From contig DASQJL010000003.1 in assembly GCA_035631035.1 (NCBI GenBank), forward strand, positions 1 through 33,362: 33,362 nt of DNA. Direction: 5' to 3'. The position numbers were made by a program, and so were the translations under genes. Position 1 is the stretch's first letter. The number at the start of each line of letters is the position of its first letter. The stretch comes from Candidatus Binatia bacterium. GTDB lineage: Bacteria; Eisenbacteria; RBG-16-71-46; SZUA-252. Below are positions 30,435 through 33,362 of the stretch, piece after piece. The notes beneath the pieces are model-generated. The model ran no database searches. It was not told the DNA's origin and saw only the letters and a program-made list of their open reading frames with translations.

Positions 30435-32559
30435 GCCCAAGAAGGAATCGCTCCTCCTGGAGATCGGCTGCGAGGAGCTGCCCGCGTCGTTCGTCGCTCC
30501 CGCGCTGGAGGAGCTTCGCGCGCTGGCCGAAGCCGGGCTTCGCGAGGCGCGGCTCGGCTTCGCCGGCGCCCGCACGTACGGAACGCCGCGCCGCCTCGCG
30601 CTCATCGTGGACGAGGTGGCCCCGCGCCAGGAGGACCGCACGCTGGAGGTCTACGGACCGCCGGCCGCGGTGGCCTTCGATGCGAGCGGCAAGCCGACCC
30701 CCGCCGCGCAGGGATTCGCCAGGCGCGTGGGGAAGCCGGTCGAGTCGCTCGAGCGGCGTCCCGGTCCCAAGGGAGAGGTCCTCTACGCCAGCGTGCCCGA
30801 GCCCGGCCGCGCGTCGGCGGAGGTCCTTCCCGAGCTTCTGAGCGGCTGGATTCACGGCCTCCATTTCCCGAAGACGATGCACTGGAGCGGCACGGACCGT
30901 TTCGCCCGTCCGGTGCGGTGGCTGGTGGCGCTCCTGGGCGGGGAGGTGCTGCCGGTCGAGGTGTTCGGCGTTCGCGCCGGCCGCCGCACGCAGGGGCATC
31001 GGATCCATGCGGCCGGATGGGCCGACGTGCCACGCCCGGACGACTACGTCGGCACGCTGCGGGAGCGTGTGGTCATGGTCGTTCCGGACGAGCGCCGCGC
31101 GGCCATCGCCGAGGGGCTGACCCGCTCCAGCGGCGGCATCGGCGGGGCGCCCGTTCCCGATCCCGAGCTCCTGGAGGAGGTCGTCCAGCTGGTCGAGTGG
31201 CCCGAGCCGGTGGTGGGCTCGTTCGATCCGGTCTATCTCGAGCTTCCGCGCCCGGTCGTCGTGACCGCGATGCGCGCGCACCAGCGCTACTTCGCGGTCG
31301 AAGGCAAGGACGGCGCGCTCCTTCCGAACTTCGTCATGATCCGGAGCGGCCGCGGCGAGGGGCACGACGAGATCCGCCGCGGAACCCAGGCGGTGCTTCG
31401 CGCCCGTCTCGAGGACGCCCGGTTCTACTGGCGCAACGACATGAAGGAAAGCCTCGACGCCAAGGTCGCCGCCCTGAAGGGAATCGTGTGGCACGAGAAG
31501 CTGGGCACGATCCACGACCGGACGCTCCGCATCGTCCAGACGGCGGAGGACCTGGCGCGGGCCCTCGCGCCGTCGGCCCGCGGCACCGCCTCGCGCGCGG
31601 CCTTCCTCTCCAAGGCCGACCTGGCCTCGGAGATGGTCCGCTCGGGGAAGGAGTTCGCGACGCTGCAGGGAATCATCGGGGCCGAGTACGCCGCGGCCTC
31701 CGGCGAGCCCCGGGAGGTGGTCGAGGCGATCCGGGAGCACTACCTCCCGCAGGGCCCGTCCGACCCCCTTCCCTCGACGATCGCCGGCATGCTGGTCAGC
31801 CTGGCCGACCGCCTCGAGGCGGTGGTCGGCGGCTTCCGGGCCGGGCTCGAGGTGACGGGATCTCAGGATCCCTACGGACTTCGCCGGGCCGGGAACGCGA
31901 TCGTTCGGATCCTCCTGGAGAAGAACCTCCGCCTCGACGTGCTGGCTGCCGCTTCCCGGACGGACGCCCTTTTCGCGCAGGCGGGGCTGGGGACGGAGCG
32001 GGCGGCGGATTTTCGCGCATTCTGGTCACTGCGGGTCGAGTCGGCCCTTGAAGAGGCTGGAATCACGCACGATACGGCCGTGGCCACCCTCGCGGTTCGG
32101 CCGGGGGACCCCCTCGACGTGCTGGCGCGGGCCAGGGCCGTGGACGCGGTGCGGCAGAGTCCCGATTTCGAGGGTCTCCTGACCGGCTACCGGCGCGCCG
32201 CCAATCTGGTGCGGTCGGCGAACCCCGAGGACGTGCCCGTCCAGGACCGTCCGATGGCCGAGCGGGCCGAGAACTTCGGCGATAAGGTCGAGGCAGATCT
32301 GCACTTGGAAACCAAGATGGCCCGGCAGGCGATGGAAACCTACCTTCAGGCGGACAACCCCGACTACGGGGCGGCCCTGAAACACCTCCTGGGGCTGCGG
32401 CCCGCCATCGACGCCTTTTTCGAGGGTGTCATGGTGATGGTCGATGATGCTACAATCCGCAGGCGCCGGCTGGGGCTGCTTGACGCCGTGCGCCAAACCT
32501 TCCTCAGAATCGCCGATTTCTCGGCCCTCCCATCCGCTCCAGGTCAAAAATCCGTTTGA
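30427..32559 (+). CDS. glyS: Glycyl-tRNA synthetase beta subunit
   Basis: The tRNA-binding subunit of alpha2beta2 GlyRS, 710 residues, typical length. [20 protein letters not shown] is the family start, FPKTMHWSG and [13 protein letters not shown] follow, and an HD-like domain ([12 protein letters not shown], then [10 protein letters not shown]) and a C-terminal anticodon-binding domain complete it. The start is GTG 30427 inside glyQ. The last codons are part of the inverted repeat and promoter at 32541-32584, so the end of this gene doubles as regulatory DNA. Confidence 0.96.
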
Positions 32560-32579
32560 CTTTGCCGGGTTTTTGACCT
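32541..32579. promoter_or_regulatory. 14-bp inverted repeat bracketing a promoter -35 (candidate operator)
   Basis: AGGTCAAAAATCCG (32541-32554) pairs over all 14 positions with CGGGTTTTTGACCT (32566-32579), 13 exactly and one as G-U. The 11-base centre holds the -35 TTGACT, and the right arm ends on the first base of the -10. The left arm is inside glyS. It could be an operator for a dimeric regulator or, less likely, a weak intrinsic terminator of glyS (short CG stem then T5). Confidence 0.65.
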
Positions 32580-32584
32580 ATACT
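32556..32584 (+). promoter_or_regulatory. Near-consensus sigma70-type promoter at the end of glyS
   Basis: TTGACT (32556-32561), 17 bases, TATACT (32579-32584): five of six matches in each box at ideal spacing, the best promoter in the window. The start is expected at about 32591. It reads into a leader of about 420 bases before the secreted-protein gene at 33012. Confidence 0.75.
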
Positions 32585-32594
32585 GGGTCGGTAA

Positions 32595-32618
32595 AGGAGG
32601 CAAAATAACTTGCCTTCT
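32595..32618 (+). promoter_or_regulatory. 5' hairpin masking a Shine-Dalgarno sequence
   Basis: AGGAGGCAA (32595-32603) pairs with TTGCCTTCT (32610-32618), nine pairs including one G-U, with a 6-base loop. It starts four bases after the expected transcript start. The left arm is a full Shine-Dalgarno; the right arm begins with TTG, which opens an 8-codon frame (LPSNSRNR, stop at 32634-32636). It may control a leader peptide or just protect the 5' end. Confidence 0.5.
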
Positions 32619-32849
32619 AACAGCCGCAACCGCTAGAACCGATTGATTTTACACCAGATGCGCGACAACGCGTGGGCTACGGGTGCGGCTCATTGCGTTT
32701 AATGGACTGAAAAATAAGAAGATACAGCAATACGCAGGCAGCTCGAAGGGGGTGAGAGGGCTAAGCGGAAACTTCTCTACTATCAGATTATTTTACAACT
32801 ACTTACCACTAAAAAAACGAGAGAAAGGAGGTCGGTCGAAGCCGCGAAC

Positions 32850-32899
32850 AGGGTCGCCCAAGATGCTCGAGCACTGTCCCAGCGAGCGGGCGGAACCCT
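32850..32899 (+). ncRNA. 50-base nested stem-loop in the leader
   Basis: AGGGT pairs with ACCCT, CGCCC with GGGCG and GCTCG with CGAGC in nested order: 15 pairs interrupted by bulges AAGAT (32860-32864) and GA (32893-32894), with a 13-base loop. It may be a structured domain of a leader RNA. No known riboswitch class is recognised. Confidence 0.4.
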
Positions 32900-32959
32900 C
32901 TTGCAGCGCTCCAAGCTCAACCGGATGTACCAGACCCGTGTCAAATCGGTTCCAGAGTT

Positions 32960-33004
32960 AGTCCTCCCGAACTAGGACTTCGAGTCAGGAAACGCTAAGG
33001 AGGA
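32960..33004 (+). promoter_or_regulatory. Candidate translational switch before the secreted-protein gene
   Basis: TCCTCC (32962-32967) is the exact complement of GGAGGA (32999-33004), the Shine-Dalgarno of the gene at 33012. AGTCCT (32960-32965), which contains part of TCCTCC, can instead pair with AGGACT (32974-32979). The latter overlaps a third hairpin, GACT-TCG-AGTC (32976-32986), that fits inside the masked form. So two exclusive folds exist, one hiding and one freeing the ribosome site. Confidence 0.45.
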
Positions 33005-33011
33005 TGTCAAA

Positions 33012-33362
33012 ATGCGGAAAACCCTAATTGCCATGCTGGGGCTTGCGGCTCTTGCGGTGTGGGCATTGCCCGTACTTGCAGGGGTTGCGAGCGACCCGCC
33101 CAAGGCTCAGCAGTGGGTGCCCCTCGATGGGCGCGCCGGAGCCATTGGAGCATTGGCTAAGAGTGGGAACTACACGGCGACGCTCAGCGGAACGGTCGTG
33201 AAGCAGGCGTCGGCGACCACCACGTGGTTCCTCTACCCGGGCGCCTGCCAGGACCGGGCCGGTGGAACGTGGGCGCCGAAGACGGCGATTCAGGCCGACA
33301 GCCTCGATACGTACACGAACGGAACGCAGGGCGGCTACACGGCCGTCGACCTGTCCCTCAAG
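33012..33362 (+). CDS. Secreted protein of unknown function (partial, runs off the window)
   Basis: The frame stays open for all 117 codons to the window end. It begins MRKTLIAMLGLAALAVWALP, a clear Sec signal peptide with cleavage probably after VLA near residue 23. The mature part is Thr/Gly/Ala-rich with WVPLDGRAG, NYTATLSGTV and TTTWFLYPGACQDRAGG; a single cysteine (in PGACQD) is visible so far. No family is recognised; a beta-rich secreted or surface protein is likely. ATG 33012 is fixed by AAGGAGG at 32997-33003, eight bases away, the best ribosome site in the window. The strong promoter, long leader and strong ribosome site suggest high but controlled expression. Confidence 0.8.
   Translation, partial: MRKTLIAMLGLAALAVWALPVLAGVASDPPKAQQWVPLDGRAGAIGALAKSGNYTATLSGTVVKQASATTTWFLYPGACQDRAGGTWAPKTAIQADSLDTYTNGTQGGYTAVDLSLK

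Follow-up and report, generated by a model that had tools for sequence, protein, structure and literature searches.

The stretch of about 420 nucleotides that precedes a family-specific secreted-protein gene at the end of this contig is a conserved, structured RNA, a conclusion strongly supported by the compensatory changes that its H1, H2 and H4/H3 helices carry. This leader is real and conserved, and it looks more like a ribosome landing strip than a proven switch. The most economical reading, which we advance tentatively and at a little less than an even chance, is that it would stabilise the mRNA and load ribosomes onto it, in the manner of the ompA hairpin, the STAB-SD element and standby leaders. 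A switch that hides or frees the true Shine-Dalgarno sequence (SD), as proposed in an initial annotation of the same DNA, is a conserved possibility in the predicted pairings and unproven as a device.

Locus, promoter and conserved structure

The window, by which we mean the whole 33,362-nucleotide stretch analysed here, is one contig end (G000:C3, where G000 is the window's own genome). Upstream of the leader lie glyQ, named from sequence, and glyS, named by Pfam. A near-consensus promoter, TTGACT-17-TATACT (32556-32584, plus strand), agrees with the consensus at 10 of 12 positions (0.1 such matches expected). Its -35 element overlaps the glyS stop codon, and the promoter is kept in all seven of the leaders that we compared. 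From the promoter spacing we infer a transcript start at about 32592, and positions ~32592-33011 would then form the untranslated 5' part of the mRNA for the secreted protein, transcribed from its own promoter. The distance from predicted transcript start to start codon is 420-438 nt across the seven leaders; in the window, ~420 nt separate the promoter from a gene for a protein of ~1,270 amino acids.

That gene begins at 33012 (33012-33362, plus strand), and 117 amino acids of its product are visible before the contig ends. Complete homologues reach ~1,270-1,310 amino acids and have a FlgD_ig/Por_Secre_tail C terminus and a signal-peptide-like N terminus, in agreement with the initial annotation, which had called the product secreted. 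The protein body matched no Pfam model, NCBIfam model or solved structure, and the codon usage of the gene gave no sign of unusually high expression. When we searched 47 genomes of the phylum, the protein was confined to one family of Candidatus Eisenbacteria. In G006:C10 (L015, 2774-4258), the gene is split into two frames after ~494 codons, which reflects either an assembly error or a real break. The family also encodes a second, paralogous secreted protein of ~1,240 amino acids with a different N terminus (L023, G003:C13; L024, G004:C35; L025, G000:C80; L028, G005:C310; L029, G001:C72), and these paralogous genes, from the same genomes, lack the long leader.

Seven of the nine family members keep the leader, at 70-75% nucleotide identity. 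The two from which it was not recovered are G004, where the gene runs off a contig end, and G008, whose assembly is 81% complete and 1.4 Mb long. Our comparative sample consists of only seven leaders, all from Candidatus Eisenbacteria and from a single family. Models built from the leader's 5' and 3' portions found no credible copy outside the family in the 47 phylum genomes (hits below 19 bits were set aside); the plasmids searched held none, and pattern hits in viral contigs were chance matches. Rfam returned no match in the window at the gathering score and, for the window leader and the six homologous loci, nothing credible at relaxed thresholds, just as the initial annotation had recognised no known class. 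A T-box, considered because glyQS lies upstream, had no Rfam match, and searches for tRNA and tmRNA found none.

The structural evidence comes from three parts of the leader. H1 (32595-32618, plus strand), a 9-bp 5'-terminal hairpin with an invariant AAUAAC loop, begins ~3-4 nt from the promoter-predicted transcript start; 96.8% of its cells are paired, four of its pairs have changed on both sides, and its RNAalifold z-score is -9.4 against shuffled columns. H2 (32622-32690, plus strand) is a long second domain closed by AGCCGCA-CC / GG-TGCGGCT. Here 98.4% of cells are paired, two pairs have changed on both sides, the z-score against shuffled columns is -4.1, and the single-sequence folds of all seven leaders share this outer stem. 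The mid-leader hairpin H4/H3 (32850-32899, plus strand) pairs AGGGTCGCCC with GGGCG(ga)ACCCT, has an inner GCTCG/CGAGC helix and carries an invariant CTGTCCC loop motif. The mid-leader sequence alignment had misregistered the arms of H4, hiding its covariation, and we corrected this with single-sequence folds. In the resulting hand structural alignment, 65 of 65 cells are paired and six of ten pairs carry changes on both sides; such an alignment is biased toward structure, and the safeguard is that independent folds recover the helix in all seven leaders. We also observed that the C-rich blocks CTGTCCC, CTCCAAGCTCAA, GTACCGAATCCCGTG and GTCCTCCCGA, at 32875-32970 of the window, are strongly conserved in the seven leaders, among which no covarying partner for them was identified.

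Given its own promoter and conserved structure, the stretch could instead be an independent non-coding RNA gene located between glyS and the secreted-protein gene. However, no terminator-like site precedes the protein gene, conservation continues unbroken through the SD and the start codon, and the stretch is seen only alongside the secreted protein, never apart from it. We consider a separate RNA gene highly unlikely, and treat the stretch as the leader of the secreted-protein mRNA.

Shine-Dalgarno-like sites without start codons

Far upstream of the true SD, the leader holds two SD-like sites. SD1 (AAGGGGGTGA, 32746-32755, plus strand) lies ~268 nt before the ATG, and SD2 (GAAAGGAGGT, 32823-32832, plus strand) lies 188-191 nt before it in all seven leaders, with ten of its ten letters invariant. 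The window's genome does carry the 16S tail GGATCACCTCCTTTC. Duplexes with this tail are predicted at ~-17 kcal/mol for SD1, in all seven leaders, and at ~-17.3 kcal/mol for SD2, making these the two best 16S-tail matches in each leader (~-17 versus -11.2 to -11.8 kcal/mol for the true SD). The mean is 0.02 such sites per shuffled leader, and in 300 shuffles per species no case with two was seen. In predicted full-length folds, both sites are only partly unpaired (0.11-0.72). Elsewhere in the same genome, a perfect SD (L076, G000:C36:15017-15026, GAAAGGAGGTGGTCCAGTGCACGATGGTATCGGC) stands before an apparent, very short ORF of ~15 codons.

If SD1 and SD2 served to start conserved small upstream ORFs, whose leader peptides would control the gene, then start codons should follow them. 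This is so for SD2 in G001 and G006, the only two leaders in which an ATG lies 8 nt after it and opens a 47-codon ORF. Across the seven leaders, however, no start codon is conserved at a usable distance from either site: one is missing near SD2 in four and near SD1 in six. Moreover, the frames are broken by stops and by 1-2-nt indels in G001, G002 and G006. Control by leader peptides thus appears to us a slim prospect.

Pairings around the true Shine-Dalgarno sequence

The initial annotation had singled out three elements immediately before the gene, and we verified the letters and coordinates of each. An anti-SD, TCCTCC (32962-32967), sits inside the longer invariant block GTCCTCCCGA and is complementary to the true SD, GGAGGA (32999-33004), which is itself inside the invariant block ACGCTAAGGAGGATGT. 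A competing stem, AGTCCT/AGGACT, would pair 32960-32965 with 32974-32979, and a small hairpin, GACT-TCG-AGTC, occupies 32976-32986 (all on the plus strand). TCCTCC, which is invariant, GGAGGA and the GTCC/GGAC core occupy the same places in all seven leaders, and both of the mutually exclusive pairings can form in every one. The competing stem keeps the four pairs of its core throughout, its outer A-U pair in five leaders (U-U in two) and its inner U-A pair in two (U-U in five); the window and G002 alone have the full 6 bp, and the other five have 4-5 bp. In the small hairpin, three pairs are kept in all seven leaders, one of them with a G-U exchange, and the loop-closing pair is kept in six.

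The initial annotation read these alternatives as the logic of a regulatory switch. In such a switch, TCCTCC would alternate between masking the SD and forming the AGTCC/GGACT hairpin, under the control of a small RNA, a protein or a metabolite. In its favour, TCCTCC is invariant, as are GGACT and the CCCGA loop, the masked state is dominant in most homologues, and the upstream H1, H2 and H4 domains could act as a sensor. However, neither helix covaries. All six pairs of the masking helix TCCTCC:GGAGGA are invariant, giving zero covariation, and the competing stem varies only by unpaired cells. Two of the checks that had been suggested for homologues point in different directions, as the anti-SD is present in all seven but the masking helix shows no compensatory change. 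Partition-function folding, also suggested, gave a masking probability of 0.11 to 0.96 for the full leaders, with the favoured state differing by species. Likewise, in a forced two-state comparison, E(mask) minus E(hairpin) ranged from -4.2 to +3.6 kcal/mol and switched sign between species. The SD is mostly paired in predicted folds, yet no more than in shuffles, and for each species its native accessibility falls within the spread of the shuffles (10th to 78th percentile). The SD can also pair with CTCC at 32908-32911, in a weakly populated state (at most 0.21). As covariation is lacking, the balance of states varies and SD accessibility is shuffle-like, a regulated switch or thermometer is unproven. 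The switch, which matches no Rfam class, seems to us rather improbable.

The thermometer, which the initial annotation had offered as an option, fares worse. Short stems can bury an SD, but the predicted exposure of this one between 10 and 65 °C has no cooperative rise: it declines in both the window and G002 and is low up to 65 °C elsewhere. Opening with heat is thus not predicted, and we give an RNA thermometer almost no credence.

A doubtful, though possible, explanation is that the local pairings are incidental and that the C-rich segment is kept for another reason, for example because a protein or another RNA recognises the GTCCTCCCGA loop. When 90-nt upstream segments are shuffled, 16-41% of them contain a 6-mer that complements the SD core; of 100 shuffled windows, 17 have TCCTCC..GGAGGA at similar spacing one or more times; and the local fold does not exceed shuffles in stability (z +0.6). 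The early caution that, from one sequence, such short stems could arise by chance was well placed. Furthermore, the competing stem is not kept at full length, and the conservation of GTCCTCCCGA is not explained by pairing alone because the invariant block reaches beyond either helix; CCCGA, for example, is invariant though neither pairing wholly uses it. Against purely incidental pairing, both partners are retained in all seven leaders at nearly fixed spacing.

The SD also falls within AGGAUGU, which is near the CsrA consensus, and further GGA motifs occur in the leader. Repression by CsrA would fit the presence of this protein in six of the nine family genomes, the window's included. However, no CsrA turned up in G002, G005 or G007, all of which have an intact leader (these assemblies are incomplete, and the absence is not absolute), and SD-like sites would contain GGA motifs regardless. 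We regard a CsrA-repressed leader as very improbable.

A putative stabilising and ribosome-loading leader

Our preferred reading, under which the leader would stabilise its mRNA and load ribosomes onto it, assigns roles to several of these elements. Like the ompA leader, H1 and H2 would close off the 5' end of the transcript and protect it from 5'-end-dependent RNase E/G decay; matches to RNase E/G occur in all nine family genomes, over the cut-off in eight. SD1 and SD2 would dock 30S subunits, shielding the mRNA in a STAB-SD-like manner, and/or keep standby ribosomes ahead of a start site that local structure partly conceals. TCCTCC may be one segment able to hide the true SD in the cell, a local lid to which the AGTCC/GGACT hairpin would be the alternative; this masking, which is weakly supported, may be the last layer of the leader. 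Counting against this reading are the codon usage, which does not mark the gene as unusually highly expressed, the only partial availability of SD1 and SD2 in the predicted folds, the failure of RNase J to pass its cut-off in the nine genomes and the small, one-family sample. We also consider it conceivable, if not likely, that the leader represents a new multi-domain class, in which two high-affinity, startless docking sites would form a built-in 30S reservoir and TCCTCC would gate delivery to the weaker true SD.

The arrangement suggests dedicated post-transcriptional control of a giant, family-specific secreted protein in Candidatus Eisenbacteria. Startless SD sites that stabilise or load mRNA are known from few cases, best studied in Bacillus. 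A conserved leader from an uncultured phylum that combines covarying helices and possible SD masking with two sites that pair with 16S rRNA better than the true SD does would be a natural test of far-upstream docking as a driver of translation.

The STAB-SD of cry3A in Bacillus thuringiensis is a 5' mRNA stabiliser that blocks RNase J (PMC4113751). Like it, SD1 and SD2 are SD-like sites in a 5' untranslated region, with strong 16S complementarity and without a translation start (except that G001 and G006 have the ATG after SD2). In contrast to STAB-SD, there are two sites here, 190 and 270 nt upstream, within a longer structured leader; RNase J had no match over the TIGR00649 cut-off in the nine family genomes, and the stabilising effect is putative. 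In Escherichia coli, the ompA 5' stem-loop guards against RNase E/G, and SD-dependent stability without start codons has been described (PMC7509114). The present leader shares with ompA a hairpin at the predicted mRNA 5' end, an exported-protein gene and the presence of RNase E/G, but it is far longer and has further domains, with no sequence relation shown between the two. The E. coli tisB standby leader sequesters its SD and offers 30S a site further upstream (PMC7708055), and a similar order of 5' structure, candidate upstream 30S site and downstream sequestered SD is predicted here. However, tisB docks ribosomes through a single-stranded region and protein S1, whereas the candidate sites here are SD-like, and no antitoxin or processing is known for the present leader. 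Translational riboswitches and anti-SD switches also have alternative pairings that hide or free the SD; unlike them, this leader has no known aptamer and no covariation in the switching helices. Collectively, these comparisons place the leader as a new, family-restricted variation on known stabiliser and standby leaders.
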